DNA of 28,129 nucleotides from a virus. Below, piece by piece: positions 1,868 to 24,944 of the stretch; the stretch's first letter is position 1; each line of letters opens with the position of its first letter. The position numbers were made by a program, and so were the translations under genes. The stretch covers positions 1 through 28,129 of the IMG/VR virus record IMGVR_UViG_3300037264_000319. The stretch is one strand, 5' to 3'. The notes beneath the pieces were generated by a model, which worked only from the letters and a program-made list of their open reading frames with translations, searched no databases and was not told the DNA's origin.

Positions 1868-3708
1868 TAGATTGCGGATTACAAGAGAAATTTCAGTGGC
1901 CGAATATTAACCGTGAGGTTTATAATCTTAAGGGTAATATTTCAGACATAGAGGCAAAGAGGCTTTTGGCGAAATTCATTAGCTGGAATCCGGGGTTCGC
2001 TTGGGAAATGCTTTCGGGAATGGAGCTAGAGGCTTTCCAAGATTTTATCATTCGGGGCTGGATGGTTAAGAATTTTAGTATGAACATATGGAGCAGGGGC
2101 GGGTCAAAAACCGAGCTTGCAGCCGTTTTTTGCGGATTGTGGCCTATCATCCAACCGGGCGCACAGGTTGTGATTGCCGCGCCGACATTTCGAAAGAGCC
2201 GCGAAATCCTTGAACGCTTTGATAAGTTTTCTCATCACCCTAAAGCTGCCCTATTAAGACAATGTATTACCGAGCCATTAAAGCGAAAAAATGATATGTA
2301 TAGTTTGAAGATTGGAAGCGGGACTTTGGTTTCTATTCCTCTTAATCCCGCAGTCCGTGGTTTTCGTAGTAATTGTTTGTTCGTAGACGAAATGCTTTTG
2401 GTTGGAGAAGAGATGTATACTTCCGTTTTATTTCCCTTCTTAGCCGCGAGAAGCGGAGTCCAAGAAGCCCTAAAGATTAAGAATATGGAAGAGCTTTTGA
2501 TTCGTCAGGGGCTAATGACGCAGGATGAAAGACAACTTCAAACGAGTTTGAAAAAAGTCATTCTGTTGTCTTCGGCTGCTTATGAGTTTGAGTTCATGTT
2601 CGATTTGTATAATAAGTGGATTGACCAACTTAAGGATGCCAAGAAGCGAGACGATAGAATTAAGGGGACTTATTTTGTTTCACAGTTAGGGTGGGAAGCT
2701 ATCCCTGATACAATTATGGACGTTAGTATGGTTCTACAATCTAAAAAGGATATGTCCGAGTCCACTTTCAATCGGGAATATAATGCTCAATTTACAAAGG
2801 ATTCTGGCTCGTTCTTTTCAATGAAGTTGATGGAACTATGTACTGTAAAGCCCGGCCAACTTCCAAGGGCTGAATTGAAGACCGATGGTAAGTCGAAATA
2901 TATCGTCGTGGTAGATACTAATTTAAGTGCCAGTTTGACGGCTGACCATTTTGGGATGGCAGTTTTAAAAATAGATTATGAAGCCAAGAAATGTTATGTT
3001 GTTCACAATTATGCGCGAGCAGGCGTAGGATTTAAAGAGCCTTCCCGCTATTTCTATTATTTAATGAAATTCTTCAATCCTGTTGCGGTTATTTTAGATA
3101 AAGGCGCGGGTGGGTGGAGATTTGTCGAAGCTTGTATGGAGAGTGCCTTATTTAAAGACGATAAATTTATGCTGGAAGAATGGAAAGCTGATTTTGATTC
3201 AGAAGATTATTCCGAATCGCTACGGGAGGCGAAGAGGCTTTACAACGTGGAAGCGAAACGGATTGTTTATCTACAAAATTTTAGTAGCGCGACTATCAGT
3301 AAAATGAACGACAACTTGCAGATTTTTATTGAAAAACAAAAGGTCTGGTTTACTTCCTCTCTTAATAGAATGGAAGATGCTTATCAATTTGCCGAAAAAA
3401 CCTTGCCCCCGTATATCTTCGAAGAAGGGGTCGAAAAACACCGCTTTATCGAAGACTTGTTGGACGACCAAGAAGATTTGATGAATGGAATGAAGAATGA
3501 AACAGCTTTGATTGAAGTCAAAACTACCCCGCAGGGTAATCGGACATTTGATTTACCACAACATTTAAAACGCTCAGATTCACCGGGTCGAGCAAGGCGC
3601 GATTCCTATTCTTGTTTATTGATGGGATGCTGGATGGCGAAGGTATTGCTGGACATGGCTGACTATAAAGACGAACAGGCCACAATAACGCCCATGTTCT
3701 TAGGTTAA
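1864..3708 (+). CDS. terL: Terminase large subunit (packaging ATPase and nuclease)
   Basis: The protein has 614 residues and starts at the ATG overlapping the previous stop. It is the motor that pumps DNA into the prohead and cuts the concatemer. The ATPase domain shows a Walker A-like SRGGSKT (residues 77-83), a Walker B CLFVDE (171-176) and a coupling-motif-like VILLSSA (232-238). The nuclease domain shows spaced acidic residues in strands: VVVD (D351), VILD (D412) and RRDSYSCLLMG (D580), as in the RNase H-like nucleases of terminases. Walker A has Ser instead of the usual Gly before the Lys, a variant I believe occurs in other large-phage terminases. Portal follows after 25 bases. The call is strongly supported by motifs, length and neighbours. 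Confidence 0.92.
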   Translation: MIDCGLQEKFQWPNINREVYNLKGNISDIEAKRLLAKFISWNPGFAWEMLSGMELEAFQDFIIRGWMVKNFSMNIWSRGGSKTELAAVFCGLWPIIQPGAQVVIAAPTFRKSREILERFDKFSHHPKAALLRQCITEPLKRKNDMYSLKIGSGTLVSIPLNPAVRGFRSNCLFVDEMLLVGEEMYTSVLFPFLAARSGVQEALKIKNMEELLIRQGLMTQDERQLQTSLKKVILLSSAAYEFEFMFDLYNKWIDQLKDAKKRDDRIKGTYFVSQLGWEAIPDTIMDVSMVLQSKKDMSESTFNREYNAQFTKDSGSFFSMKLMELCTVKPGQLPRAELKTDGKSKYIVVVDTNLSASLTADHFGMAVLKIDYEAKKCYVVHNYARAGVGFKEPSRYFYYLMKFFNPVAVILDKGAGGWRFVEACMESALFKDDKFMLEEWKADFDSEDYSESLREAKRLYNVEAKRIVYLQNFSSATISKMNDNLQIFIEKQKVWFTSSLNRMEDAYQFAEKTLPPYIFEEGVEKHRFIEDLLDDQEDLMNGMKNETALIEVKTTPQGNRTFDLPQHLKRSDSPGRARRDSYSCLLMGCWMAKVLLDMADYKDEQATITPMFLG

Positions 3709-3719
3709 AAGTGTAAAGT
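3707..3719 (+). promoter_or_regulatory. AAAAGTGTAAA element before portal (putative late promoter)
   Basis: AAAAGTGTAAAGT begins within the terminase stop codon and lies about 14 bases before the portal ATG, with a strong ribosome-binding site (AGAGGAAAGG) in between. It is one of 11 copies of a shared element in this window and the only one with AAAG instead of AAAT at its 3' end. Promoter function is inference from repetition and placement. Confidence 0.5.
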
Positions 3720-3733
3720 ATAAGAGGAAAGGT

Positions 3734-5668
3734 ATGCCAAGAAAAAAGAAAGAAAATAATGAACCGATTAACATTGCCCAAGCTCAGAATACTCTAGCCC
3801 CCTCTTTTGCGGCTTGGGGTATTTCAGAGGAACGAACGGGGTCAGGGACAATGACTCGTACTCGACGGGGTAAAACACTTCTTACTAGCGTTCCATTAAC
3901 AGACAAATATACCTTTATTAATGAGTTGCCGCTGCCCTTTATTCGATTCTCTTATGGGGCAAATAACTATATCTCAATCCGGGAGACTCTCCAACTCATA
4001 GAAAAGGCTTATTTCGGATTTGCGCTATTCCGAAACGTAGTCGAAACTTTCGTCGAACTTTCTAATACTGATATTTATCTTAAGGGCGGGAACAAGGAAT
4101 CTCGTACCTTTATCAGCAAGTGGTTGGAGAGAGTTGGTATTTGGAATGTTGCTGACCAATGGTATCGTGATTACTTCTGGAAAGCGAATGTTTTTCCGTA
4201 TCGAAGGGATGCTAATTTCTCTGATGCCGATATTAAACAATTGCAGATGATTTATGGGTCTAAGGCGAAAATCTCTGGATTGAAACAAATTCCAATTGAT
4301 TATACATTTCTAGCCCCGGAAGACTTAGTGACCCAAGTGGGTTGGAATTATGGTGGTCAATTTTATAAAGTAATGAGTCCAGCCGAAATTCAGAGAGTGG
4401 CTAATCCTAAGACTGACGAAGACAAGCAATTTGCCGAGCAGTTTACGCCCGAAGAGCGTAAGATGGCACAACAGGGGTCATTACAGTATCAAGCAATAGA
4501 CCCCGAACGGCTCTATTATTCAACTTATAAGCGGCAGAGTTATTATCCGTTTGGAGTCCCGTTTGGATTCTCTGTCCTTGCTGATATTAACTTTAAATTG
4601 CTTTTGAATAAACTGGACGAAGAAATTGCAAAAACTCTTGACTTGGCATTACTTCATATCGCTGTTGGCGATGAAAAAACAGGTATCATTAACAACAACA
4701 ATATCTCCACTTTGCAACAGATGTTTGGTAATCCGAAGCTCCAACGAGTTTTAGTAACTGATTATACGGTAAAACTAGAGTGGAAAATTCCTCAAATAGA
4801 TACGCTACTTGGCCCGACGAAACACGAAGAAATCAACCGCCGGTTGAAGGAAGGCTTATTCTCTGCCATATTTGGAGAGGCTGAGAAATTTGCCAGTTTA
4901 TCAGTCAAGGGCAAAGTTTTGGTTGAGAAGCTTGAAGAGGCGCGGCGTGGCTTCCTAAATGATTTCTTGCAGCCTGAGATTAAACGGGTTAGTCAGATTA
5001 TGGGATTTAAGAACTTCCCAAGGGCGTATGCCAAGGATATTAGCCTTGAGGATGAAGTCACACTCCGTCGAATTTATGGGCGGCTGGCTGAAATTGGATT
5101 CCTTACTCCGCAAGAAACTTTTCAGGCGATTCAGGAAGGGATTTTACCTCTGCCAGAAGAGAGTTTGGAGAACCAAGAAGAGTTCAAGGCTCAGAAGGCT
5201 AAAGGTTTATGGGTTCCGGCAGCGAATCCACCTTCTCAATTTGTCAAGTCTGCTCCTAAACCCCCGATGATTGGGGGCGTGACTGGTAGACCGGCGGGTA
5301 CGGGGACGCCACAGACGACAAAGAAAACAAAACCGATTGGTTCAAAAGGGTCATTTAGCATGGCAAAGATTTTAGAGAAAGTTGTCGCATTAGGAGAGCT
5401 TGAAAAACTAGTTTATCCACAAGTATGTAAAATAGCCGCGCTTCAGGAAACGGATGAAACAGGTAAGCGGCTTGCTAAGACAATATCGCTATCCTTGGCA
5501 GTGAACAGGGATATTAAAGAATGGAATAGTTCAATTGAAGAATTCATTCGGAATCCGAAACTTAACGAAATTGACGAAAAAGTAAAGGCCGAAATATTTG
5601 AAATAGAACAGGAACTTGGTGTTGATAACGAACAAGCGACTATTCTATTTTTAAGTAATCGGGAGTAA
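3734..5668 (+). CDS. Portal protein
   Basis: The protein has 644 residues and follows the large terminase, the standard portal position. It would form the ring at one capsid vertex through which DNA enters and to which connectors bind. The start is supported by AGAGGAAAGG just upstream. Residues 95-150 (ALFRNVVETFVEL, then WLERVGIWNVADQWYRDYFW) match the usual portal pattern of an early helical region with a first-contact WxxRDYF-like segment. The middle contains long helices (FKLLLNKLDEEIAKTLDLALL), fitting the stem/wing region, and the C-terminal third is a Pro/Gly-rich linker followed by a charged helical tail. Length is typical for large phages. The call rests on order and fold impression rather than on a catalytic motif. 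Confidence 0.85.
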   Translation: MPRKKKENNEPINIAQAQNTLAPSFAAWGISEERTGSGTMTRTRRGKTLLTSVPLTDKYTFINELPLPFIRFSYGANNYISIRETLQLIEKAYFGFALFRNVVETFVELSNTDIYLKGGNKESRTFISKWLERVGIWNVADQWYRDYFWKANVFPYRRDANFSDADIKQLQMIYGSKAKISGLKQIPIDYTFLAPEDLVTQVGWNYGGQFYKVMSPAEIQRVANPKTDEDKQFAEQFTPEERKMAQQGSLQYQAIDPERLYYSTYKRQSYYPFGVPFGFSVLADINFKLLLNKLDEEIAKTLDLALLHIAVGDEKTGIINNNNISTLQQMFGNPKLQRVLVTDYTVKLEWKIPQIDTLLGPTKHEEINRRLKEGLFSAIFGEAEKFASLSVKGKVLVEKLEEARRGFLNDFLQPEIKRVSQIMGFKNFPRAYAKDISLEDEVTLRRIYGRLAEIGFLTPQETFQAIQEGILPLPEESLENQEEFKAQKAKGLWVPAANPPSQFVKSAPKPPMIGGVTGRPAGTGTPQTTKKTKPIGSKGSFSMAKILEKVVALGELEKLVYPQVCKIAALQETDETGKRLAKTISLSLAVNRDIKEWNSSIEEFIRNPKLNEIDEKVKAEIFEIEQELGVDNEQATILFLSNRE

Positions 5669-5671
5669 AAA

Positions 5672-6493
5672 ATGAAAAAGAAATTTTTGGCAATCGCATT
5701 GCTCTGTATGCTAATGCTCCAAATCAGTTGTTCTTACCTCGTTCCAACCAAAAGCGAACTTCAAGCGAGATACGATATAGCTTATCAAAATCAAGTCGTC
5801 GCGGCAGCGGGTTATGTTTCGGCGGCTAAAGACGTAGTTGAAATACTTTCCTTTTCTAACCAAACGTCAGAAGTTCTTGTCAGTGAGAATTTGTTAACAA
5901 AGGCAGAGAGTCTACTTCCTAGACCGGCGATTAAAGACAGGATAGATGTTCACGGATTATTGTCAACAAATAAGTCCACTCTTGCCAAAGCCAACACGAA
6001 ATTAAAAGATAAATGGACGACAGACGTTCAACGGGACGAAAGAATCGTGTCCTTAAAGAAACAGGTAGATACAGAAGATAGGAAGGTGGATGCTCTTGCC
6101 GCCAAATATGAAGAAGCTAATAATAAGCAAATCTGGTGGAAATTCTGGACTTGGACGGGCAGCACCCTTGTTATCGGTGGAATCATTGCGGCTTGTGTAT
6201 TTTTTCCTGCTTTAATTCCAGTTGTTCTTGCTGTAGTCAGAATGATTATCAATACATTTGTGAGCTTTATTCAGTGGCTTGTTCCTGCTTTTAGTAGAAC
6301 CATTAAAGGTATTTCTAATTTTAAAACGCAACTTAATGCGGAAGCAGAAGCTAACAAGGCACTCCCGCCTGATAAGAAAATTACTTACACGCCAGAAGAG
6401 GTCAGTCATTATTTAGGAGAAGAATTAAAGAAAGCAACCGACGAAAAAGATAAAGAAGTCATTTCAAAGCTAAAGACCAAAATAAAGGCGTAA
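5672..6493 (+). CDS. Putative lipoprotein with hydrophobic hairpin or transmembrane helix
   Basis: The protein has 273 residues; GGGAG lies six bases before the ATG. The N-terminus is a signal peptide with a lysine-rich start, a hydrophobic core and a lipobox-like LQISC, giving a lipidated Cys at residue 20 (the -3 position is Gln, slightly off consensus). Residues 21-155 are helical and charged. Residues 164-207 form a long hydrophobic stretch that could be one or two membrane helices, preceded by a Trp-rich belt (IWWKFWTW). A charged tail of about 65 residues follows. An outer-membrane lipid anchor plus an inner-membrane helix is the layout of single-protein spanins, but a superinfection-exclusion or envelope protein is equally possible. 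Its place between portal and protease is odd for any of these roles. Confidence 0.6.
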   Translation: MKKKFLAIALLCMLMLQISCSYLVPTKSELQARYDIAYQNQVVAAAGYVSAAKDVVEILSFSNQTSEVLVSENLLTKAESLLPRPAIKDRIDVHGLLSTNKSTLAKANTKLKDKWTTDVQRDERIVSLKKQVDTEDRKVDALAAKYEEANNKQIWWKFWTWTGSTLVIGGIIAACVFFPALIPVVLAVVRMIINTFVSFIQWLVPAFSRTIKGISNFKTQLNAEAEANKALPPDKKITYTPEEVSHYLGEELKKATDEKDKEVISKLKTKIKA

Positions 6494-6504
6494 AAGTGTA
6501 AATA
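6492..6504 (+). promoter_or_regulatory. AAAAGTGTAAATA element (putative late promoter)
   Basis: An exact copy of the shared element starts inside the stop codon of the lipoprotein gene and ends 23 bases before the ATG at 6528. No TTGACA-like box lies 17 bases upstream of it. Promoter function is inferred. Confidence 0.55.
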
Positions 6505-6527
6505 ATTCATCAGAAGGAATATTTCAT

Positions 6528-6890
6528 ATGACGAAAGAACAAATCAAGCAATTCAAAACTGAATCCGAAGACCTTTCTCTCAAGGCTAAGGGCGCACTTG
6601 ATACCTTTCAAAAGGCGATTGCTGCAATGCCCGGTGATGTAGCGGTTAGCCCTCAAGACATGAAAACGATTTGTGAAAATCTGTATGGTTCGATGAGTTA
6701 TCTACACGATAGGATTAGTAATTTGGCAACAGCGATGTATAACCATTCTGATAACGGTCACTTGCCCCCGATTCCTTCAAACTCCCATATGCAGAAAGCA
6801 TTGAAAGTGCTTGGTTTGGATTCAGAATACGAATCCGCGCCAAAACGCACCGTTTATGCTGGCAAGGCTGAGTATATTGTCGGAGAGTAA
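6528..6890 (+). CDS. Hypothetical protein, 120 aa
   Basis: The ATG has AGAAGGAA upstream at suitable distance. The protein is soluble, mostly helical in its first 80 residues (SEDLSLKAKGALDTFQKAI, then MSYLHDRISNLATAMYNHSD), followed by a Pro-rich turn (HLPPIPSN) and a short tail. I see no signal peptide, membrane segment or known motif. It sits between the lipoprotein and protease genes with its own putative promoter, so it is probably a head-assembly accessory, but I do not recognise a family. Confidence 0.7.
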   Translation: MTKEQIKQFKTESEDLSLKAKGALDTFQKAIAAMPGDVAVSPQDMKTICENLYGSMSYLHDRISNLATAMYNHSDNGHLPPIPSNSHMQKALKVLGLDSEYESAPKRTVYAGKAEYIVGE

Positions 6891-6963
6891 TGAGAAAGAA
6901 GATTGAAAACTATTGCTCATAGTACGACTTAAATTAATTATCGAACAGCTTAAATATCCGATA

Positions 6964-6976
6964 AAAAGTGTAAATA
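6964..6976 (+). promoter_or_regulatory. AAAAGTGTAAATA element (putative late promoter)
   Basis: This exact copy ends only six bases before the protease ATG at 6983. There is no ribosome-binding site in the gap. If the element is a -10-type box, transcription would begin at or next to the start codon. Confidence 0.55.
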
Positions 6977-6982
6977 TTATAA

Positions 6983-8524
6983 ATGCAAAAGAAGAAATTT
7001 CCATATAGAGCGATTTTCACTTCTGTCGCCCACGTTTTAGTAAATCAAGAGAGAGAAGATTTTCTCGCTCAAGCGAGCTTGGAAGACCTAAAAAGTCTCA
7101 TTCCAGATGAGGTTTTGAAATCGAAAGCTCTACTTCCAATTGCTTTTCCCGCTTTTACTGTTAATTTGCCGAATAAAAATCAAGACATAATCCTTGCCGA
7201 AGATGCTTTGCCTATCTATAAAGGATTTATTCATCAACAGGTGAATCGCTCTCATAATCAAGCTATTCCTATTGGGCATATCGTTGGGGCATCTTTATCT
7301 CGTTATAGTCCTAATTATAGTGCTGGTGTTGGGAATAACATTTTAACGGAAGACGAAGTTAAGAAAAATATCAAGAAACCTTTCAACGTTGCTTTGGCGG
7401 CGGCACTTTATTGGGTCACTGACGAAGATTATTTGCAGCAAGTCGAAGATAGTGCCGACCCCAATAGCGAAAACTATATGATGATTACCGCATCATTCGA
7501 AGTTGCCTTTGATGATTATCAGATTATGCGGAAATCGCCCGACATTAGTAAGGCCGAATTTATTACGGATGCTGCTGTATTAGAAGAGCTTAAACCGTTG
7601 CTAAAAGCTTTTAAAGGCAAGGGTGTTGACGAGAATAATGAGCCAATTTATCGTGTTATGAAAGGCGAGATTGTTCCTGTTGGTATTGCCCTAACTACTC
7701 GTCCGGCAGGGACGGTAAAAGGGATTGTAACTATCGGCACAGCAGAAATTTCCAATTCCGCCGAAAAAAGTGTAAATGCAAATGCTATAGTAGAAATTTC
7801 AGAGGAAAGTTCCAAAAATAGAGAAAAAAGTGTAAATGGAGATACAGATATGAAGCAGATTAAAACCCTCGATGAGTTGAAAGCAGTTAAGCAAGAAGAC
7901 CTTGCACAAGTAGCTCACGCCTCAATTATTGAAGTTGTAGAAAAGGGCATCGAAGATGCTAACGTTCAATATACCAAGAAGCTTACCGAAAAAGATGACG
8001 CTATCAAGACTGCGACTCAAAACGCGCAAGCGGCTCAAGAAAAGGCTGACAAGCTAGAAAAGGATTTGCTGGAAGTTAATAAGAAGCTTCAAGAGAACGA
8101 CCAGAAGGCTCTCGCACAGGCGAAGGAGCAGACGTTCCAAACTCGTATGAGTTCTATCAACGACACTTTCGAATTGGATGAGAAGCAAGTTACCGTAGTT
8201 GCAAAGCAGATTAAAGACCTTGACGAAGCTGGCTTCACTGGCTGGCTTGAAGGTTTCGAAGCTTTTGCGGCTAAGAAGACTAAGGTTAAGTTCGGCAAGG
8301 ACGGAAAACCGATTGTTGACGAAAAGGAAGTAAAAGACGGTAAGAAAGAAGAGAAGCTTGAAGCGAAAGCAGAGCTAGTTGATAAAGATGCCGAAACTCA
8401 ACGTATCCTAGACGAAGCAAAGGCTAAGGAATCGCAAATCGCGGCTGCGAAGACGATTGAGGATACAAAAGCAGATTTGAAACAAGACTTCACTCTCGGT
8501 GAAGGCATTATTTTGACCAAGTAA
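6983..8524 (+). CDS. Prohead protease fused to scaffold protein
   Basis: The 513-residue protein joins two functions. Residues 1 to about 255 resemble the herpesvirus-type prohead serine proteases of large phages: FIHQQVNRSHNQ supplies the probable catalytic His (H91), and MMITASFEVAFDDY the probable Ser (S171), with GHIVGA between. Residues 290-513 are a charged coiled coil with many Ala, Glu, Lys and Gln, typical of a scaffold that fills the prohead and is then digested. A linker of about 35 residues joins them and contains EKSVN twice. No ribosome-binding site precedes the ATG. An internal ATG at 7850 with GGAGA upstream could make scaffold alone, as in lambda C/Nu3. The position just before decoration and capsid genes fits. 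Confidence 0.85.
   Translation: MQKKKFPYRAIFTSVAHVLVNQEREDFLAQASLEDLKSLIPDEVLKSKALLPIAFPAFTVNLPNKNQDIILAEDALPIYKGFIHQQVNRSHNQAIPIGHIVGASLSRYSPNYSAGVGNNILTEDEVKKNIKKPFNVALAAALYWVTDEDYLQQVEDSADPNSENYMMITASFEVAFDDYQIMRKSPDISKAEFITDAAVLEELKPLLKAFKGKGVDENNEPIYRVMKGEIVPVGIALTTRPAGTVKGIVTIGTAEISNSAEKSVNANAIVEISEESSKNREKSVNGDTDMKQIKTLDELKAVKQEDLAQVAHASIIEVVEKGIEDANVQYTKKLTEKDDAIKTATQNAQAAQEKADKLEKDLLEVNKKLQENDQKALAQAKEQTFQTRMSSINDTFELDEKQVTVVAKQIKDLDEAGFTGWLEGFEAFAAKKTKVKFGKDGKPIVDEKEVKDGKKEEKLEAKAELVDKDAETQRILDEAKAKESQIAAAKTIEDTKADLKQDFTLGEGIILTK
7766..7778 (+). promoter_or_regulatory. Intragenic AAAAGTGTAAATG element, upstream copy
   Basis: This element lies inside the protease/scaffold gene, in the linker between the two domains, where it encodes part of EKSVN. 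It ends 71 bases before the internal scaffold ATG at 7850. It is the only member of the tandem pair placed far enough upstream to give a leader that includes the internal ribosome-binding site. Confidence 0.5.
7826..7838 (+). promoter_or_regulatory. Intragenic AAAAGTGTAAATG element, downstream copy
   Basis: The second copy lies 60 bases after the first, again encoding KSVN, and ends 11 bases before the internal ATG. The GGAGA ribosome-binding site starts at its last base. The surrounding DNA looks like a diverged tandem duplication: AGAAATTTC precedes both copies. Confidence 0.5.
7850..8524 (+). CDS. Scaffold protein from nested in-frame start
   Basis: This is the C-terminal 224 residues of the protease/scaffold gene read from an internal ATG in the same frame. 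GGAGAT sits six bases upstream of that ATG, better than anything at the full-length start, and two copies of the putative promoter element precede it. The product is a charged, Ala/Glu/Lys-rich helical protein with a coiled coil near residues 45-100 and a compact segment (TGWLEGFEAFAAKKTKVKFG) near its middle. A separate scaffold made in excess from a nested start is established for lambda (Nu3). Here it is inferred from signals alone. Confidence 0.55.
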   Translation: MKQIKTLDELKAVKQEDLAQVAHASIIEVVEKGIEDANVQYTKKLTEKDDAIKTATQNAQAAQEKADKLEKDLLEVNKKLQENDQKALAQAKEQTFQTRMSSINDTFELDEKQVTVVAKQIKDLDEAGFTGWLEGFEAFAAKKTKVKFGKDGKPIVDEKEVKDGKKEEKLEAKAELVDKDAETQRILDEAKAKESQIAAAKTIEDTKADLKQDFTLGEGIILTK

Positions 8525-8543
8525 ATAGGAGATAATACAGACA

Positions 8544-9101: not shown

Positions 9102-9121
9102 TATAGTAAACTTTGTATAAT
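9091..9121 (+). promoter_or_regulatory. Weak sigma70-like promoter before capsid gene
   Basis: TTGACG (9091-9096) and TATAAT (9116-9121) are separated by 19 bases, longer than the optimal 17. The -35 box overlaps the last codons of the decoration gene. It could give extra capsid transcript, but AT-rich sequence here makes chance likely. Confidence 0.25.
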
Positions 9122-9136
9122 AGGAGAAAAAACGAT

Positions 9137-10291
9137 ATGAGAATTAAATTTAAAGAGACACCAAAACAGGTAGAGCTAGTCAAGGCGATGGCGTCCAAGA
9201 ATCGTATTACTTCGGAACAGGCGCAGTATGCCTTTGCCGAATTGATGCAGCCTGTCATTGAGAAGGTCATTCTTGAGAATGACGTTACCAGTGGCTTGTT
9301 TGAGGATATGCCGTTCAATGAGAACGACGACCCCTCGTTGCCGCTTGACCCCTTCCGTAATTATAAGGAAGATACCCTCTCCATTTGGAGTCAGGAAGTG
9401 GCTGGTGGCCTTGCTACCAACTATGTCAAAGCCCCAACGGACGAAATTAAGTTTACGACATTTCGTGTAGATAGCGGCATTTCTTACGAAGAGAAGTTTG
9501 CTCGTAAGGCTCGCCTTCCTATTATCGCTGGTTATATGACGATGATGGTTCAAGAGTTGCTCCGCAAGCGGAAGTATAATGCGTGGACGACCCTTTTGAC
9601 CGCGCTGGCTCTTGCCTCGCATAAGAGCGTTTTGGCTACGGCTAGTCCTCACGTTTTTCGTGCGACGACTGCTCAGAAGTTCGACTTGGATGAGTTGAAT
9701 TATTGGTTCCGGTTGGTTCGTCGTTTGAACGTTTCGATTTTCGGCGGCTCTCCTACCGATAATCCGTTTGGTTTGACTGACATTTGGTGCAGCCCTGAGT
9801 TTGTGATGGCGATTCGTTCGTTGTCCTATAACCCGATTAATACCAAGGGGTCAAATAATACGGCAGGAACGAATGCTTCGGGTGTTATCACGCTTCCTGA
9901 TTCTGACCGGACAGCCCTTTTGAACACGGCTGGTACGGCGAACTTCATGGGCGTGAACCTTCACGAAATGAACGAGCTTGGCCTTATCGGTGAATTCAAC
10001 ACCATCTTCGATGCGGTTGCTGGCTCTACGGCATACTACAAGAAAGATGATTCAACTAATAGCGCGTTTGTTGGCGGAACGACTGAGGAAATCGTGGTTG
10101 GTACTAACGGTGGTGCGCCGTTCGGTTATCGCCCGATTGAGACTTCGGATGAAGATGCTTCAAAGTCTACGTTCCAGTTGCAGCCCGACGACCAGTTCAC
10201 CCGTAGAAGTGGCAGGATTGGCAGCTACGGCTGGTATAATCTCGGACACTTGATTACTACGACCCGTCCTCTGAGTGGATTTATCTGGTAA
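9137..10291 (+). CDS. Major capsid protein
   Basis: The protein has 384 residues from the ATG at 9137, which has AGGAG ten bases upstream; an in-frame TTG at 9113 lies before that ribosome-binding site and is rejected. The helical N-terminus (SEQAQYAFAELMQPVIEKVI) leads to an alpha/beta body consistent with the HK97 fold, including a long spine-like helix (AGYMTMMVQELLRKRKYNAW) and later strand-rich segments. The C-terminus, with SGRIGSYGWYNLGHLITTTRP, resembles capsid proteins of large phages. A strong terminator follows within 25 bases of the stop. Position after protease/scaffold and decoration genes, length and the terminator all support the main shell protein. Confidence 0.85.
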   Translation: MRIKFKETPKQVELVKAMASKNRITSEQAQYAFAELMQPVIEKVILENDVTSGLFEDMPFNENDDPSLPLDPFRNYKEDTLSIWSQEVAGGLATNYVKAPTDEIKFTTFRVDSGISYEEKFARKARLPIIAGYMTMMVQELLRKRKYNAWTTLLTALALASHKSVLATASPHVFRATTAQKFDLDELNYWFRLVRRLNVSIFGGSPTDNPFGLTDIWCSPEFVMAIRSLSYNPINTKGSNNTAGTNASGVITLPDSDRTALLNTAGTANFMGVNLHEMNELGLIGEFNTIFDAVAGSTAYYKKDDSTNSAFVGGTTEEIVVGTNGGAPFGYRPIETSDEDASKSTFQLQPDDQFTRRSGRIGSYGWYNLGHLITTTRPLSGFIW

Positions 10292-10314
10292 TAAACTGGA
10301 TTAATCATAGATTA

Positions 10315-10349
10315 AGCCCCGAAGTCACAAGCTTCGGGGTTTTTCTTTT
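10315..10349 (+). terminator. Rho-independent terminator after the capsid gene
   Basis: CCCCGAAG (10317-10324) pairs perfectly with CTTCGGGG (10332-10339) around a seven-base loop and is followed by TTTTTCTTTT. It ends the scaffold-decoration-capsid unit. Confidence 0.9.
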
Positions 10350-10352
10350 AAC

Positions 10353-10381
10353 TTGATATTTATGGTGTTAGATAGTATAAT
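10353..10381 (+). promoter_or_regulatory. Sigma70-type promoter TTGATA-N17-TATAAT
   Basis: TTGATA (10353-10358) and a perfect TATAAT (10376-10381) are spaced by exactly 17 bases, four bases after the capsid terminator's T-run. The same pair with the same spacing recurs at 23035. It would drive the gene at 10404 from host RNA polymerase. Confidence 0.7.
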
Positions 10382-10403
10382 AAGAAAGTATAGGAGATAA
10401 TAT

Positions 10404-10778: not shown

Positions 10779-10797
10779 AGTCCATTTTTCTTCTGTT

Positions 10798-10809
10798 AAA
10801 GTGTAAATA
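10798..10809 (+). promoter_or_regulatory. AAAGTGTAAATA element (putative late promoter)
   Basis: This copy ends 32 bases before the ATG at 10842, with GAGGAG as ribosome-binding site between them. It opens the fibre gene block that runs to 14927. Confidence 0.55.
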
Positions 10810-10841
10810 CGGTAAGAATATAACTTTAATGAGGAGTTTTT

Positions 10842-11162: not shown

Positions 11163-11163
11163 T

Positions 11164-12252: not shown

Positions 12253-12253
12253 C

Positions 12254-13045
12254 ATGATTTATAAGAATTTAGCAAATCTAGGCGGCGGGGTAAATGCCGC
12301 CCAATTAACCGGCTACGAACAAATAGCCCGTAAAAATCAACCAACCGGCTATGTTGGACTTGACGCCAGCGGAAACTTGTCTTCCTGTGTTTTGATTCCT
12401 CGCCAAGATACCGAAGCTAATCTTAATACTATTGTTTTAGCTAGTGGAGAGTTTGCCTCAACTACCGATACCAAAAAATTAAGGTTAGGTGATGGAATAA
12501 CAACCGGCGGTAATAATTATGACACTAGTTCTTTCGACCAAAATTTAAACTCCACCGGGTCTGTTCTTTTTTCAACGTTAACGACAAACAAAATTAATGA
12601 GTTTACCCATGACCCCGGCAGTCGTGATTTTACACGGTCAATTCTACAAGGATTCAAGTTGGCAAACAACGCACCATTCCTTACTTTTGCAGGGTTATAT
12701 GATTCAGACGATGATACGAGACAGTTTGGAGCTTTTTTAGATACTCAGACATACGGGTATCCTGAAATTTACTCTGGTTTACAGGTATTTCTTATTCATC
12801 AAATAGAAACCATTCCGCAATTAAGCGTGTCTATCCCTACTACCGCATCCCAAACATTTACGATTAGTCCTTCGCACCCTAGTTCTGGTTTGGCCTTTAC
12901 TAACCATACAGGAACTTCGCCGTCAATTATTTCACAAAGCACATTTACAGGGGTGGTTGGGGCAACCGGTATAACCCTTGGTCAGCCTTCGGGTTGGATT
13001 CAAATAATGGTAGACGGGAAAACTGGAAAAATCCCTTATTATTAA
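12254..13045 (+). CDS. Fibre/adhesin with Mtd-like N-terminal motif
   Basis: The protein has 263 residues; its ATG follows the previous stop by one base without a clear ribosome-binding site. Residues 47-85 (LIPRQDTEANLNTI, then LASGEFASTTDTKKLRLGDG) match the pattern RxDT...NxVLxxGExxxxTDTxxxxxGDG found near the N-terminus of many phage tail fibres and of the major tropism determinant. In those proteins it is a small attachment or trimerisation fold. The C-terminus (GWIQIMVDGKTGKIPYY) matches another common fibre ending with a G-K/T-Y-x-I/L-P-x-Y strand. The middle is beta-rich with no visible repeats. I infer a virion surface fibre or receptor-binding component in the same operon as its neighbours. 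Confidence 0.65.
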   Translation: MIYKNLANLGGGVNAAQLTGYEQIARKNQPTGYVGLDASGNLSSCVLIPRQDTEANLNTIVLASGEFASTTDTKKLRLGDGITTGGNNYDTSSFDQNLNSTGSVLFSTLTTNKINEFTHDPGSRDFTRSILQGFKLANNAPFLTFAGLYDSDDDTRQFGAFLDTQTYGYPEIYSGLQVFLIHQIETIPQLSVSIPTTASQTFTISPSHPSSGLAFTNHTGTSPSIISQSTFTGVVGATGITLGQPSGWIQIMVDGKTGKIPYY

Positions 13046-14927: not shown

Positions 14928-14960
14928 AAGATATTACACTAATTATCTCGTTCTTGCCTT

Positions 14961-14972
14961 AAAGTGTAAATA
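14961..14972 (+). promoter_or_regulatory. AAAGTGTAAATA element (putative late promoter)
   Basis: The element ends 14 bases before the ATG at 14987, with AAGG as ribosome-binding site. A partial inverse copy, TTACACT (14934-14940), lies just upstream and could pair with AGTGTAA. It opens the second fibre sub-block, to 19005. Confidence 0.55.
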
Positions 14973-14986
14973 CTGTAAGGTAAATT

Positions 14987-18321: not shown

Positions 18322-18330
18322 GGCAAATAA

Positions 18331-19005: not shown

Positions 19006-19019
19006 AACATTCGAAAATT

Positions 19020-19030
19020 AAGTGTAAATA
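19020..19030 (+). promoter_or_regulatory. AAGTGTAAATA element (putative late promoter)
   Basis: The element ends 13 bases before the ATG at 19044, with AGGAAGGA between. It heads the four-gene connector/neck operon. Confidence 0.55.
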
Positions 19031-19043
19031 TAGGAAGGATATT

Positions 19044-19511
19044 ATGAAAGCAATAGATTTAGCAACAGATATATACGACGAACTTGGCGAAACCGGGCTT
19101 TCTATCCCCTTTATTTCCAGTTGGTTACGAAATAATATTGGCAAACTGAATTTGGAATTAGATTTGAATATCGTTCCTTCGGGTCAATTTTTGGAGCTAG
19201 AACCAGAATTGGAGACAGACCAAGCGGGAATTTATAAGCTTTTGTTTTTAGAACATTATTACGGGCGGCAGGCAAGAGCTAACTTAGGGGCAAATGGTTA
19301 TCAAATTATACGAGCTACCGAAGGTGATTCTACTATTCAGTTTGCAGAGAAAAAAGATGTAGAGAAGAGTTATATTGCCCTACAAAAAGATACTCGTAGT
19401 GCAATTAATGATGCCGTTAAAATGTATCGGTTAAATTATTCTGTTCCTAAGCAAGCTACAACAAGCGGCGATTGGTCGGTTTATCCGTTAAACGTCCCAT
19501 ACTCATACTAA
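19044..19511 (+). CDS. Head-tail connector (adaptor) protein
   Basis: The protein has 155 residues from the ATG with AGGAAGGA upstream; an in-frame start inside the previous gene is rejected. It is mostly helical: an early DLATDIYDELGE helix, a SWLRNNIGKLNLEL helix, and a later LLFLEHYYGRQARANLG segment. This fits the helical adaptor ring proteins that bind below the portal (HK97 gp6-like). Its place as first gene of the neck operon supports that. No catalytic features are seen. Confidence 0.65.
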   Translation: MKAIDLATDIYDELGETGLSIPFISSWLRNNIGKLNLELDLNIVPSGQFLELEPELETDQAGIYKLLFLEHYYGRQARANLGANGYQIIRATEGDSTIQFAEKKDVEKSYIALQKDTRSAINDAVKMYRLNYSVPKQATTSGDWSVYPLNVPYSY

Positions 19512-19515
19512 ATTT

Positions 19516-19974
19516 ATGGCTGGATATTTGTCTGATGCAATAAAAACAGAAATAGAAGGGATTTGGAATTTACACCACGAATCTTGGGCTGACGAATTTT
19601 ACTATTTTCTGGAAAAGGAAATTCTCACGATAACGGCAGATGCGAACTACAATTACGGCTATGGTATGAATCAGGATGGAGTTACTAAAAGCTTAGAGGC
19701 CGTTTCAGGGATGATAACAGGAAGAATTCAGTACGTTCCAATTATTACGTTAAGTCGCAGAGCAAAAACAACATATCCTGACGAGAATATCCCGCTGGTG
19801 GAGAGGAAATCCCTTGCAAGACTCAAGGTAGATGCTGCCGGGTATGAAATAGTAAAACAATCCAAACAGATAGTATTACCAGACGGGAAAACTTACGTTT
19901 GGAAAGGCCCAACTCAAGCAATTGGCCCATTTAATTTAAATTATACGAGCCTTTTATTGGAAGAGGTAAAATAA
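19516..19974 (+). CDS. Head completion / stopper-type protein
   Basis: The protein has 152 residues. It starts four bases after the previous stop with no ribosome-binding site, so it is probably coupled. A helical start (AIKTEIEGIWNLHHESW) is followed by a beta-rich body with charged loops (TGRIQYVPIITLSRRAKTTYPD). Its last base pair of codons overlaps the next gene by one base. Size, order and fold impression fit a head-closure or stopper protein between adaptor and tail, but I do not recognise a specific family. Confidence 0.5.
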   Translation: MAGYLSDAIKTEIEGIWNLHHESWADEFYYFLEKEILTITADANYNYGYGMNQDGVTKSLEAVSGMITGRIQYVPIITLSRRAKTTYPDENIPLVERKSLARLKVDAAGYEIVKQSKQIVLPDGKTYVWKGPTQAIGPFNLNYTSLLLEEVK

Positions 19975-20645
19975 TGCCGCGCCAACCAGTTATACATTTT
20001 GATGTAATTATGGATAGAGTGGCGAAGCTTCCCCTAACGATTAAAAACATTGAGGGGCAGGCAGCGGCGACTTTTGAGCCAAAAAAGGAACAGTTTTTAG
20101 AGGCAATTGAGAACAGTGATGTTTCTCAAGAAATTGAGGCGGGTTCTGACGGAGAAGGAGCAGAGAATATTTCGGGGACATTGGAAGGGAAAGGCGACCT
20201 ATTTAGTTTCATTGGATTTGATAGAGGCACTCATCCGGTTCAATATTTTATCAATTTTTTACGATATACAATCCAAACGAGCCGAATTACGAGAGTTAAT
20301 AAGACAAGCCGAAATACACGGCGGTTTGTTTTTAATGTAATTGTTCCAACAAAAGACGAAATTACACAAGAGACTCAGATTCCTTGGAATCCCGGACGCT
20401 CTTGGGTTTATGGAATTGAACAGGGAATTAGTGGGTTTGGATTATATTTAGCTAAGAGTATGTTAAGAACAGGAAATGATAAATTAAGGGAACACCTAGA
20501 AGAAATTATTGATGAACATTCTCATTCTGGTCAAGCCCTGCAAATGAAACTCAGGCGGGGCGGTAGTGGGCGACCCGGACGATTCCATAGCGTTTCCTAT
20601 TTTTCACCTTTGTTCGCAGCCTTTAAGAAGAGCGTTAGCCGCTAA
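19974..20645 (+). CDS. Neck / tail completion protein
   Basis: The protein has 223 residues, with one-base overlaps at both ends. It contains GKGDLFSFIGFDRGTHPVQY and a C-terminal basic segment with SGQALQMKLRRGGSGRPGRF followed by aromatic residues (SVSYFSPLFAAF). This layout recalls neck or tail-terminator proteins of large siphoviruses and the HK97 gp10 group, which join head and tail. Assignment is by order and pattern; the exact role within the neck is unresolved. Confidence 0.5.
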   Translation: MPRQPVIHFDVIMDRVAKLPLTIKNIEGQAAATFEPKKEQFLEAIENSDVSQEIEAGSDGEGAENISGTLEGKGDLFSFIGFDRGTHPVQYFINFLRYTIQTSRITRVNKTSRNTRRFVFNVIVPTKDEITQETQIPWNPGRSWVYGIEQGISGFGLYLAKSMLRTGNDKLREHLEEIIDEHSHSGQALQMKLRRGGSGRPGRFHSVSYFSPLFAAFKKSVSR

Positions 20646-21481
20646 TGAAAAAACAAATAGACCATAGCATAACAACATCCTTCCTAGAAAAATTGGATAA
20701 CAAAATTGTTACTAAAGGTGAAGCTTTTATTAATGTTAGCACAGGCTTTTATCCTGTTAAGACGGTAAATCAGCAAGTGTATGCCTATGCTTCGCCCTTT
20801 AAACAGTTCATTTACGACTCTAGTATCGGTGGAACAGTAAATTTGAGTGGAATTTGGAGTGATGGGGTATTTTATAGTCGCGCAAGCGGAATTACTATTG
20901 ATTATCAAAATGGAAGGGTTCTTTCTAAAACGCAATTAGGCTCAAATATTTCGGGAACGTTTTCTCTGCACGAATTAAATATTAAATATACCGATAAGAA
21001 CGAAGACCAGATTTTAATGGAAACAAAATATGTTTCAGAACCCATTCAACCTCAACAGATTACAGGAATTGCCGAATCGGTTGAAACGTATCCGATGATT
21101 TATGTCACCTATAATAACGGAAAGAATATGCCTAGAGCAATGGGGGGCTTAGATTCAACAAATGGGCGATTTACTTGCTATGCAATGTGCAATTCTAGTT
21201 GGCAATTAGATGGGGTTTTGTCCATCATGCGGGACATGAAACATACTATTTTTGCCCTGCTGGATAGTTCTGAATTGCCCCTAAATGTGTCAGGAGACTT
21301 AAAAAATCCCAATTATAGCTATAATACTTTGGTTTCGGGAAAATCTTACCCAAATATCGTTCATATTGAAGATGTAAATTGTTCGAAATTAACTGTTGAA
21401 GCTAATCAGGCTATAAATCCGACTGTTCGGGTTGGGATTGCCGAATTTGAAACTGCAATGACTCGAAACCCCCGCCTTTAA
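20645..21481 (+). CDS. Neck or tail-completion protein, hypothetical
   Basis: The protein has 278 residues and overlaps the previous gene by one base. A helical N-terminus (SFLEKLDNKIVT) precedes a beta-rich body with QFIYDSSIGGTVNLSGIW and a Ser/Asn-rich C-terminus. It is the last gene of the neck operon and is followed by the promoter element of the tail tube. It probably completes the tail top or neck; no known motif is seen. Confidence 0.5.
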   Translation: MKKQIDHSITTSFLEKLDNKIVTKGEAFINVSTGFYPVKTVNQQVYAYASPFKQFIYDSSIGGTVNLSGIWSDGVFYSRASGITIDYQNGRVLSKTQLGSNISGTFSLHELNIKYTDKNEDQILMETKYVSEPIQPQQITGIAESVETYPMIYVTYNNGKNMPRAMGGLDSTNGRFTCYAMCNSSWQLDGVLSIMRDMKHTIFALLDSSELPLNVSGDLKNPNYSYNTLVSGKSYPNIVHIEDVNCSKLTVEANQAINPTVRVGIAEFETAMTRNPRL

Positions 21482-21498
21482 GTTCCAATTAATTCCAA

Positions 21499-21511
21499 AA
21501 AAGTGTAAATG
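21499..21511 (+). promoter_or_regulatory. AAAAGTGTAAATG element (putative late promoter)
   Basis: The element lies 38 bases before the tail tube ATG; GATAGGAGAA is the ribosome-binding site. The tube gene is then closed by its own terminator. Confidence 0.55.
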
Positions 21512-21549
21512 TAGAGAGAAGAATCAATTTTTGATAGGAGAACGATAAT

Positions 21550-22608
21550 ATGGCAAGAGATAGAATACAATATAATAGCCTCGCAGTTTACGCCACAAAT
21601 TCACCTGCAACGGGGGCTGTTGGGACAACGACTCAGCTTAAACGAATTACGAATCTTTCTTGGAATTTTAACGTCAGCCGTACTCCCGTTCAGATTTTCG
21701 GGCGATTAGCTCGTCTTTCGAATGTCATTACTGAGCCGCCCACGGTAGGATTGTCTACGACTTGGCACGATGTTAATGCAAACAACGAGAGCACTCTTGA
21801 AATCGTACTTGATGGAAGCAATTCATTTGCTAGAATCCTAAGTGGTGTTAGTGATACTCGTAATTATGCTATTCTTTTGGCTGATAATGAAGACGATGCT
21901 ATCGCCGCCACGCCACCGGGCTATTCTGTTATCGGGATTGGTAATGCTGGCCTGACGAGTTATAGCGCAAAGGGCGCAGTCGGTGGATTTCCTGAATGTT
22001 CAATCTCGGTTGAAGGAATGAACTTTGCAGTTGCTATTGGAACATCTATTGCAAATCCTTCGATTGACCCTAGAGATGGCGGAAGTGCTCCGGGCGGCGG
22101 TTCAATAAGTTGTGGTGCTCCTGTTACTGGTTTGGGAGTTGATATTTTGCGTCAGGGCGATGTTACGCTTAATATTAGCAATGCTATTGGCGTTAATATG
22201 AGCGACTTAAAAGTTCAGAATTACGACATTAGCGTTAGTATGAACCGAAGCTCGCTTAATAAGCTTGGTAATCGCTACGCCTATGCTCGAAAAATTAACT
22301 TTCCCGCGACAATTACGGCAAACTTTAGCTGCGAGCTTGGTGATTTGGCCGCTGGCAACTTGAGAAATCTCTTATGTTCTGACGCTGGTTTTGATGTTGG
22401 AATTGTGTTGAAGACTCCTACCTGTCCGACTGGTGGGCCTGCCGCGACCCCTGTTAAGGGATATACGGTTAAGGGGGCGCAAATATCCTCACAAGACTTT
22501 GGTGCTTCTATTGGTGGTAACGCGACTTGTAACTTGAGTTTTGTCAGTACAATGTCTGCTCCAAGTGATACCTCCGTTGGATTGTTTATTAGCGGTATCA
22601 CTGAGTAA
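21550..22608 (+). CDS. Major tail tube protein
   Basis: The protein has 352 residues with AGGAG upstream. It is nearly all beta with repeated strands and shows two similar halves: the first contains ITNLSWNFNVSRTPVQIFGR, the second LKVQNYDISVSMNRSSL with further strands. Two tube-type barrels in one chain would give a large tube subunit. A Gly-rich hinge (near 22080-22110) separates the halves. Strong ribosome-binding site, own promoter element and a terminator right after the stop suit an abundant protein. It lies before chaperone-like genes and the tape measure, the standard place. No sheath gene is adjacent. Confidence 0.75.
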   Translation: MARDRIQYNSLAVYATNSPATGAVGTTTQLKRITNLSWNFNVSRTPVQIFGRLARLSNVITEPPTVGLSTTWHDVNANNESTLEIVLDGSNSFARILSGVSDTRNYAILLADNEDDAIAATPPGYSVIGIGNAGLTSYSAKGAVGGFPECSISVEGMNFAVAIGTSIANPSIDPRDGGSAPGGGSISCGAPVTGLGVDILRQGDVTLNISNAIGVNMSDLKVQNYDISVSMNRSSLNKLGNRYAYARKINFPATITANFSCELGDLAAGNLRNLLCSDAGFDVGIVLKTPTCPTGGPAATPVKGYTVKGAQISSQDFGASIGGNATCNLSFVSTMSAPSDTSVGLFISGITE

Positions 22609-22628
22609 AAAGACCTATTCAAGATAAG

Positions 22629-22663
22629 AGCGACAGCCTAATAAGTTGTCGCTTTTTCTTTTT
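22629..22663 (+). terminator. Rho-independent terminator after the tail tube gene
   Basis: AGCGACA (22629-22635) pairs with TGTCGCT (22647-22653) around an 11-base loop, followed by TTTTTCTTTTT. Confidence 0.85.
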
Positions 22664-22669
22664 CTAAAG

Positions 22670-22681
22670 AAAGTGTAAATA
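22670..22681 (+). promoter_or_regulatory. AAAGTGTAAATA element (putative late promoter)
   Basis: The element follows the tail tube terminator by seven bases and ends 28 bases before the ATG at 22710. Confidence 0.55.
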
Positions 22682-22709
22682 ACCACGCATAAGTAATTAT
22701 GCAAGGAAT

Positions 22710-23048
22710 ATGGAAAGAAAACAGTTGGATAAGGGGTCTATCGCTCAGGATTTTTTAGAGTTTCAGCTAAGACGAAATATAACAAATCTTTTCCGAAACT
22801 ATTTGGAAAGTCTAGATGGATTAAAATCTCAGCATGAAATTATGATGGAAAAGCTTGAAAAAGTGCTTCCAAAAGAACAATTCGCTCTCGTTCAAGCCGC
22901 TGATTTTTTTAATGAGAAGCAAAGCTCGGCTATTCGAAAGAACATTCTGGACGTTGGGAATAATTCTATTAATGATTTGCTTAAAGTCATTGAGCGTTTT
23001 GAATTAATTGCGTTTAATGGGAACATAAAAGTTCTTGATAAATACTAG
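22710..23048 (+). CDS. Small helical tail-assembly protein
   Basis: The protein has 112 residues with AGGA very close to its ATG. It is all-helical and charged (NITNLFRNYLESLDGLKSQH, then MMEKLEKVLPKEQFALVQAA, then AIRKNILDVGNNSINDLLKV). I recall similar helical proteins directly after the tail tube in other large phages. A chaperone or tail-assembly role is inferred from position; no motif gives a mechanism. Confidence 0.55.
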   Translation: MERKQLDKGSIAQDFLEFQLRRNITNLFRNYLESLDGLKSQHEIMMEKLEKVLPKEQFALVQAADFFNEKQSSAIRKNILDVGNNSINDLLKVIERFELIAFNGNIKVLDKY

Positions 23049-23063
23049 GGTAAAAGGTATAAT
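23035..23063 (+). promoter_or_regulatory. Sigma70-type promoter TTGATA-N17-TATAAT
   Basis: TTGATA (23035-23040) and TATAAT (23058-23063) are spaced by exactly 17 bases. The -35 box lies in the last codons of the preceding gene. The boxes and spacing equal those at 10353. Confidence 0.6.
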
Positions 23064-23081
23064 AATAAAGGAAAAAGGAAT

Positions 23082-23930
23082 ATGAAGCAAGATAAACATC
23101 TCTACACTACGACAATCACTCGCGTTGTTTCTACGGACGTTACCAAGACGGAAAAGCGGGACGGAAAAGATGTATCCGTGACGGAAAAGATTGATAAGGA
23201 AATTCCGGTTAAACTTGTTATCAGAAACCCGACCCGTAAGGAGAGGGACGATGCTGACGAATACTATTCAATCGAATTGTCTAATCTAATCAGCAAAGGC
23301 GTTCTCACGAAGCATATGCTTCGAAAGAAGATTATTGATGGGGCGGGTGGTTTTTTGACGAATACCGAAAGCCAAGAATTTAATGATGTATTAAAGAAAA
23401 TGCAAAATTTAGAGACGGAATATCAACGTCTTTTGCTGATTGCCGACAAAGAGCGAACGCCAGAGGATAAAGAAAAACTCGATAAGATTCAAGGTGAATG
23501 GGCGGCAATTCAGTCTAATATAATGCAACTTGAACAGACTCAGCAATCTCTATTTAATCATACCGCTGAGAATATTGCTTCAAATAAATTGGTGACTTAT
23601 TTTGTTCTAGGTTTGTCTTGTGTGGAAGAGGGTAGCGAGCTAAAGCCAATTTTTGAGGGGAAGACTTTGGAGCAGAAGTACCAAAAATATGATGAAATTG
23701 AGTCTGGTGGCGACAAATTTTGGCTTGATTGTTTCACTCGTTCTTTCCTAGTTGTCGCGCTTTGGCGAAATGGAATTGCGGAAACCCAAGAGGAATTTGA
23801 TGCTTCGGTTAAAAAGATTACCGAAAAGGCAAATCCAGTTCCAGAAGTTAAACCCACGGAAGATAAAGTTCCAGAAATCAAAGTCCCGGAAGAGAAGAAG
23901 AAAGAATCTCCAAAGGCGGCGGTGAAGTAA
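23082..23930 (+). CDS. Tail assembly chaperone-like protein
   Basis: The protein has 282 residues, with AAGGA upstream. After a beta N-terminus it has IRNPTRKERDDADEYYSIEL and LISKGVLTKHMLRKKIIDGAGG, a pattern I recall in proteins between tail tube and tape measure genes of large phages. Then follow a long coiled coil, a conserved-looking C-terminal helix region (KFWLDCFTRSFLVVALWRNG) and a Pro/Lys/Glu-rich tail. It probably holds the tape measure during tail assembly, as lambda gpG/GT does. No frameshift extends it into the next gene. Its promoter is sigma70-like rather than the shared element. Confidence 0.6.
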   Translation: MKQDKHLYTTTITRVVSTDVTKTEKRDGKDVSVTEKIDKEIPVKLVIRNPTRKERDDADEYYSIELSNLISKGVLTKHMLRKKIIDGAGGFLTNTESQEFNDVLKKMQNLETEYQRLLLIADKERTPEDKEKLDKIQGEWAAIQSNIMQLEQTQQSLFNHTAENIASNKLVTYFVLGLSCVEEGSELKPIFEGKTLEQKYQKYDEIESGGDKFWLDCFTRSFLVVALWRNGIAETQEEFDASVKKITEKANPVPEVKPTEDKVPEIKVPEEKKKESPKAAVK

Positions 23931-23931
23931 T

Positions 23932-24924
23932 GTGGATGCCTATGAGATAAAGGCAATCTACGGGGATATACTTCGCGGGTTTTCGGTTATAACTTACCAG
24001 AAAGAGAATATTTATCTAAAACATTTCTCTAATTTTGTCTTATCAGATTTAGATTCAAATTATACCACCCTATTTAAAGAAGCTAGGGAAAAGGGACTGC
24101 CGACGAACGAAGACCGTCTCAAAGTTCTCAAAGAGATGAACCTTTGGACTGAATCCGATGAAGAGTCTATCCATAATGCAAAAAAGACACTAGAAGGGCT
24201 AGAAGCAACACGGCGTAAGGTCTTTCTCGAAAGCCAACTATCTCAAATAACTCGGAGTATAAATAACGAGAGAATCAACCTCACCATAATACTGAGTCGA
24301 AAGCTCAAACTTTTGGGGTTGACTGCTGAATCTAAAACAAGTTCTCAAATTAGTAACCTTTATTTATTAAATTCTACTTATAAAGATAAAGATTTCACAA
24401 TTCCCTTATTTTCGAAAGAGGATTGGGATAATTTATCCCACGATAAATTTGAAGAAATTAGCGTAAATTATCGGCAAAATAGCGACCGATTTAGCATCGA
24501 AAACATTCGGAAGGTTGCTATTAGTTCAACTTGTCAGATGCAGTATGATTTATGCGGGGATAATCCTTATAACTTTTTTGCCCGTCCTATCTGTTATTTG
24601 ACTGTTCATCAAACGGAGCTTTGTCGCTGGATGAAAATCTTTCATAGTATAATCACAAATACTAAAAATATTCCCGAAAATCTGTTTAACGACCCCGAAG
24701 GGTTGGTTGATTGGGTTCAATCCTCTCGCAACCTTCAAGAAACAGCTAACGCTAATAAAGAAAAAGGTGCTGATGCCCAAACAACCGTTATCGGAGCAAC
24801 GAAGAAAGACCGTGAAAAAGCAGGGTTAGGTAATCCATTTGATTTTATTAATGACCTTCGTGAGCAGGGAAAAACAACAGCTAATATTCAGGATATTGTT
24901 AACTTACAAAAGGATAAGAAATAG
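23932..24924 (+). CDS. Second tail assembly chaperone-like protein
   Basis: The protein has 330 residues starting with GTG one base after the previous stop; the nearby ATG at 23930 reads only seven codons. It is helical, with an early LPTNEDRLKVLKEMNLWTES, a central LTIILSRKLKLLGLTAES and a conserved-looking CGDNPYNFFARPICYLTVHQ segment. I recall this last pattern in proteins next to the tape measure of other large phages. It ends with a charged, Gly-containing tail. It probably acts with the previous gene in tail assembly. It ends 42 bases before the tape measure start. Confidence 0.6.
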   Translation: MDAYEIKAIYGDILRGFSVITYQKENIYLKHFSNFVLSDLDSNYTTLFKEAREKGLPTNEDRLKVLKEMNLWTESDEESIHNAKKTLEGLEATRRKVFLESQLSQITRSINNERINLTIILSRKLKLLGLTAESKTSSQISNLYLLNSTYKDKDFTIPLFSKEDWDNLSHDKFEEISVNYRQNSDRFSIENIRKVAISSTCQMQYDLCGDNPYNFFARPICYLTVHQTELCRWMKIFHSIITNTKNIPENLFNDPEGLVDWVQSSRNLQETANANKEKGADAQTTVIGATKKDREKAGLGNPFDFINDLREQGKTTANIQDIVNLQKDKK

Positions 24925-24931
24925 TCTCATA

Positions 24932-24944
24932 AAAAGTGTAAATA
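24932..24944 (+). promoter_or_regulatory. AAAAGTGTAAATA element before tape measure
   Basis: An exact copy lies 22 bases before the tape measure ATG, with AGGATAAGG as ribosome-binding site. An inverted copy sits inside the start of the gene. Confidence 0.55.

Follow-up and report, generated by a model that had tools for sequence, protein, structure and literature searches.

The short element that recurs throughout the window, by which we mean the whole 28,129-base stretch of DNA that was analysed, is probably a late promoter that depends on a sigma factor, in the style of the promoters read with T4 gp55 or phiEco32 gp36; from the window and its relatives we infer the start point, the timing, the reader and the possession of the sigma factor by this phage. 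The window is a complete IMG/VR entry and a fragment of an uncultured tailed phage, covering its late region, with genes for an ERCC4 nuclease, a terminase, a portal-like protein, a protease-scaffold protein and a tape measure, together with a gene weakly matching a capsid cement protein and many genes of unknown function. Gene 9113 is the probable major capsid gene, an assignment made from gene order only. Megablast against deposited phages gave no DNA-level match. The coordinates of the elements and of the features around them are compiled in the table.

Table. Late-promoter-like boxes and associated features in the window (distances run from the G of GTG to the ATG; G001 is a 172 kb relative)
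Feature	Position	Strand	Sequence	Context	Counterpart in G001
ERCC4-type nuclease gene	2..538	+		cut by window start	
Large terminase gene, distantly SPbeta/Slash-like	1855..3708	+		without preceding box	
Box	3710..3719	+	AGTGTAAAGT	23 nt before portal-like gene 3734	CGTGTAATAG at 146516
Portal-like gene	start 3734			preceded by box 3710..3719	
Box	6495..6504	+	AGTGTAAATA	32 nt before small gene 6528	
Box	6967..6976	+	AGTGTAAATA	15 nt before protease-scaffold gene 6983	CGTGTAACAT at 149657
Probable protease-scaffold gene	6983..8524	+		protease residues ~1-245, coiled-coil scaffold residues ~290-513	
Box	7769..7778	+	AGTGTAAATG	inside protease-scaffold gene, 80 nt before internal ATG 7850	
Box	7829..7838	+	AGTGTAAATG	inside protease-scaffold gene, 20 nt before ATG 7850	
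TTGATA-17-TATAAT promoter	10353-10381			11/12 matches; before gene 10404, right after strong terminator 10314-10342	
Box	10800..10809	+	AGTGTAAATA	41 nt before gene 10842	
Box	14963..14972	+	AGTGTAAATA	23 nt before gene 14987	CGTGTAATAT at 153357
Box	19021..19030	+	AGTGTAAATA	22 nt before gene 19044	CGTGTAATAA at 6710
Box	21502..21511	+	AGTGTAAATG	47 nt before gene 21550	CTGTAATA variant
Intrinsic terminator	22626..22656	+		12-pair stem, T-rich tail; divides preceding unit from box 22672	
Box	22672..22681	+	AGTGTAAATA	37 nt before gene 22710, right after intrinsic terminator	AGTGTAAATA at 10255, likewise right after a terminator-like hairpin
TTGATA-17-TATAAT promoter	23035-23063			11/12 matches; before gene 23082, which lacks a late box	
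Box	24935..24944	+	AGTGTAAATA	31 nt before tape-measure gene 24967	GTGTAATACT at 12637
Tape-measure gene	24967..28129	+		continues past window end	
Extra copy of box	24989-24980	-	AGTGTAAATG	inside tape-measure gene start	

An earlier note on this DNA had listed eleven copies of the element, all on the + strand, nine before gene starts and two inside one gene. All eleven were recovered, with coordinates accurate within 1-2 bases, and their placement held, the two internal copies being those at 7769 and 7829; a single - strand copy was also found, so that the ratio is 11:1 rather than exclusive. The core common to all 11 + copies is AAGTGTAAA. The full 13-mer AAAAGTGTAAATA given in that note occurs exactly in only three copies (6492, 6964 and 24932), while AGTGTAAATA is exact in seven of the window copies. 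With three mismatches allowed, the loose 13-mer showed no excess (25 occurrences vs 22 in shuffles), so the signal resides in the core of 8-10 bases. For AGTGTAAA, 12 occurrences were observed against 1.06 expected from shuffles, the maximum among 100 shuffles being 4. Nine + copies lie in zones 6-60 bases before gene starts, which together span 5% of the window (P = 1e-10), and the same word, which was not preset, heads the 8-mers enriched upstream of genes (9 vs 0.29; P = 3e-11). A tenth + copy stands ahead of an internal start within the protease gene that would suit a nested scaffold. The claim that the copies mark each functional module was not upheld, since none precedes the terminase gene, the probable major capsid gene, or genes 10404, 16645 and 23082.

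Relatives did not emerge from single-protein scans with the terminase, the gene 6983 product or the portal-like protein; they were reached via the tape measure and, later, via sigma and terminase alignments. The terminase alignment gave no match in the genome_contigs set; in IMG/VR this phage clade has more than 500 terminase relatives. The 172 kb contig G001, found through the tape measure, is syntenic with the window, 15 of whose genes match it by tblastn at approximately 26-39% protein identity. Its boxes, mostly of the form GTGTAATA, have co-diverged from the window form: they precede six of the seven orthologues of boxed window genes (portal, protease-scaffold, 14987, 19044, 22710 and tape-measure) but none of the seven orthologues of unboxed genes (Fisher P = 0.005). 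As the same orthologues are boxed and the form has changed, the box has drifted in sequence while its positions were retained. In an unbiased 7-mer search, GTGTAAT ranked first (i) in G001 (20 vs 1.1; P = 1e-18), (ii) in G002, another relative found through the tape measure, and (iii) in 80 further loci (150 vs 4.7, in related contigs whose counts are partly dependent). Run through the same k-mer script as controls, T4 returned its known late box, TATAAATA, and the Slashvirus Staley gave mostly ribosome sites, without GTGTAAT. The box and the sigma factors described below are shared by uncultured phage contigs from lakes and oceans, numbering in the hundreds; the literature yielded no relevant account of the box, or of any described system in this clade.

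A logo of 167 non-redundant sites displays AT-rich flanks and no -35 signal at 16-18 bp, with only weak A/T at -22 to -28, which bears out the lack of a -35 box reported earlier from the window. At +14 from the G of the box, a purine is found in 86% of the sites with a more distant start codon, and mapping the box onto T4 TATAAATA predicts the same start, +14. The distance between box and ATG ranges from 10 to 47 and is often 14-20 nt. Shine-Dalgarno-like sequences accompany 12 of the 23 sites with the ATG at least 25 nt away and only 1 of the 103 with the ATG at most 18 nt away. Because the use of such sequences tracks this distance, the element most likely sets the 5' end of the mRNA, transcription starting near the box and short distances giving leaderless messages. 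Inspection by eye of the window copies agrees, the one at 6967 (15 nt) being without a Shine-Dalgarno sequence and the farther ones having it; the mRNA of gene 6983 is thus predicted to be leaderless. Taken with the strand and position bias, the co-divergence at orthologous genes and the sigma genes of the relatives, the absence of a -35 signal speaks for the promoter reading that had been proposed.

The gene that carries the two internal copies probably encodes a maturation protease with a coiled-coil scaffold fused to it, roles suggested by sequence layout and position; its product has no family match. The in-frame ATG at 7850, which opens the scaffold part, is conserved, and in relatives a variant resembling ATGTAAA lies at about -23 to -26 from it. 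This is suggestive of an internal promoter, although it is weaker evidence, as the sequences are related and coding. Nested scaffold genes have a precedent in lambda C/Nu3; for the two in-gene boxes of the window, T4 gene 17, which is annotated as transcribed from within, offers a parallel.

No sigma gene was found within the 28,129-base fragment, and G001 encodes two sigma-70-type proteins, P0001 and P0002. P0001 matches Pfam Sigma70_r2 above the cut-off. A Pfam region-4 match is absent from G001; the idea of a sigma factor without region 4 was dropped, because a sigma-4-like domain appears at the C-terminus of the structure model. This model, of moderate confidence (pLDDT 73), resembles sigma factors over the sigma-2 and sigma-4-like (helix-turn-helix) domains, between which lies a conserved Cys-rich stretch (knuckle); sigma-factor folds dominate its structure matches, with Foldseek E-values that are not significant. 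At least 339 proteins from viral contigs belong to the P0001 family. P0001 occurs in 23 of 24 longer contigs and, close by homologues of window gene 635, ERCC4 and the terminase, in 80/80 loci that were themselves retrieved using P0001. The cassette of the relatives runs sigma, 635 homologue, ERCC4, terminase; in the window (2-1867) the order of the ERCC4 nuclease and gene 635 is reversed. Deposited phage genomes gave no significant match to the sigma of the clade. In the genome_contigs set, the sigma alignment matched three MAG contigs (Flavobacteriales, Halobacteriovorax and Flavobacteriaceae bins), which we did not accept as host evidence. The P0001 homologues of G012, G017 and G031 contain one in-frame TAG within the match, which may reflect either a small alteration at the C-terminus or recoding of TAG.

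In the mechanism that we propose, each copy would serve as a -10-type late-promoter box needing no -35 box, at which host RNA polymerase core with a phage sigma-70-family factor would recognise (A)GTGTAA(A/T)(A). A purine some 14 bases past the initial G of GTGTAA would serve as the start of the RNA, late genes lying at the start point would be translated from leaderless or near-leaderless mRNA, and those farther downstream would tend to bear a Shine-Dalgarno site. The box would most likely be read by the P0001-family sigma, itself expressed from a TATAAT-type promoter in an early/middle to late cascade. Of the two sigmas, we prefer P0001, as its gene is part of the late cassette and accompanies the structural genes most regularly. 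Among 82 loci, its operon is preceded by a TATAAT-type box in 64 and by GTGTAA in 2, which would place the sigma upstream of the late class. Several observations count against this mechanism: the window has no sigma gene; G002 has the box and P0002 but no P0001; a sigma-4-like domain such as that predicted for P0001 normally reads a -35 box, and the sites have none; and the post-gap genes 10404, 16645 and 23082 have no box, two of them carrying TTGATA-17-TATAAT instead. A wider proposal, which we advance only tentatively, is that a large uncultured lake and sea clade runs a two-sigma cascade in which a late sigma of a new type, combining a sigma-2 domain, a Cys-rich knuckle and a sigma-4-like domain, ignores -35 and reads only GTGTAA(A/T)A, and that in AT-rich members both early and late transcripts start at the start codon and are mostly leaderless.

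Other promoters were also apparent. Of 26 TTGACA occurrences upstream of genes in G001 (L015-L023), 13 start 34-36 nt ahead of the start codon, a distance that would put the first base of early messages at that codon; TTGACA marks a second, separate class of host-type early promoters, and among the genes listed the box class and the TTGACA class share none. Shine-Dalgarno-like sequences are found in only 43 of 211 G001 genes, and expression there is predicted to be mostly leaderless. Just upstream of the sigma gene (L031-L110) is a gene for a product of about 145 aa, often with a tail of the F-x-(K/R)-E-A-G-x-(I/L)-R type; its promoter has TATAAT, no TTGACA and a recurring TATTTAGAATATA-like stretch upstream, and perhaps represents a third (middle) class. 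Between 58.8 and 69.8 kb, G001 encodes prepilin-like and autotransporter-like proteins, some with late boxes upstream, and these surface proteins hint at a Gram-negative host.

As to who reads the box, it may instead be a P0002-family sigma (region 2 with a region-4-like end), with P0001 serving another promoter class or being replaced in some lineages. We regard this as unlikely, even though G002 has the GTGTAAT box and P0002 but no P0001 (in a contig that is probably incomplete), P0002 co-occurs with P0001 in G001, G004 and G022 (both were present in 5/5 contigs of at least 130 kb searched for both), and P0002 matches the PHROG family of phiEco32 gp36 (phrog_1740; E 3e-4), a member of which reads a similar single element. 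Against it, most contigs of 30-97 kb, which are fragments, yielded no P0002, and P0001 is the more conserved and belongs to the late cassette. The earlier note had left room for a phage polymerase besides a sigma-like factor. The terminase is distantly akin to those of SPbeta-group phages, whose late genes are transcribed by YonO (PMC5467207), but the box is short and -10-like, and in G001 we found no RpoB-type domain (PF00562, controls positive), no open reading frame with a DxDGD motif and no T7-type match (PF00940, for which the control was silent); a promoter for a T7-like or YonO-like polymerase is accordingly very improbable, the YonO reading being unsupported.

T4 middle promoters and many other phage promoters use activators, and the box might be an activator or repressor site acting with the host sigma-70 holoenzyme. 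This too is improbable: no second conserved element (-10 or -35) appears at a fixed distance in the logo over 60 bases upstream and 40 downstream, and the purine signal falls at the +14 start position. Its frequent location 14-20 nt before the ATG could also suggest a translation or mRNA-processing signal. The variable spacing and the dependence of Shine-Dalgarno use on it argue otherwise, as does the fact that boxes follow terminators and are absent from closely packed genes; directly after the hairpins preceding box 22672 and its G001 counterpart, a promoter would be expected and a ribosome signal would not. Shuffles excluded a chance repeat, and we give the translation, processing and chance readings hardly any weight. 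The late-promoter reading allows late gene control in this clade, with its more than 500 IMG/VR terminase relatives, to be approached from sequence, supplies testable promoter-sigma pairs where no cultured model exists, and would present a sigma that has an apparent region-4 domain and yet uses a promoter lacking a -35 box. Late transcription units in other contigs of the clade may also be marked by means of the box.

Compared with known systems, the window shares with SPbeta a distantly related terminase and a late cluster under phage control; YonO is, in contrast, an RNA polymerase of which no counterpart was found in the relative G001, and the SPbeta promoter sequence was not determined in that study (PMC5467207). 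The late promoters of Kayvirus, TGTTATATTA, consist of a long -10 box without -35 before structural genes, with a phage sigma inferred (PMC7698491), but box, host and sigma all differ here. The likeness to T4, whose late promoters TATAAATA are read with sigma gp55 (PMC2988020), holds for the architecture, namely a single box of 8 bases placed roughly one turn of the helix ahead of the start, an AT-rich downstream region and no -35 conservation, and TGTAAATA differs from TATAAATA at one position; it does not extend to the sigma, as hhalign of P0001 with T4 gp55 (single sequence) was not significant and no homology was detected. In phiEco32 (Kuravirus), the gp36-dependent middle and late promoters have a single element with the consensus tAATGTAtA, read by host core with the phage sigma, and transcription starts 6-8 bp downstream (PMC8948821). 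Kinship with gp36 is at most marginal, P0001 matching phrog_1740 with a marginal E of 0.04 and hhalign to gp36 giving no significant similarity. The box of the present phages, (A)GTGTAA(A/T)A, belongs to another phage lineage, and P0001 has an additional Cys-rich knuckle and sigma-4-like domain; both systems nevertheless place a single short element with a TGTA core, and no -35, before their late genes.
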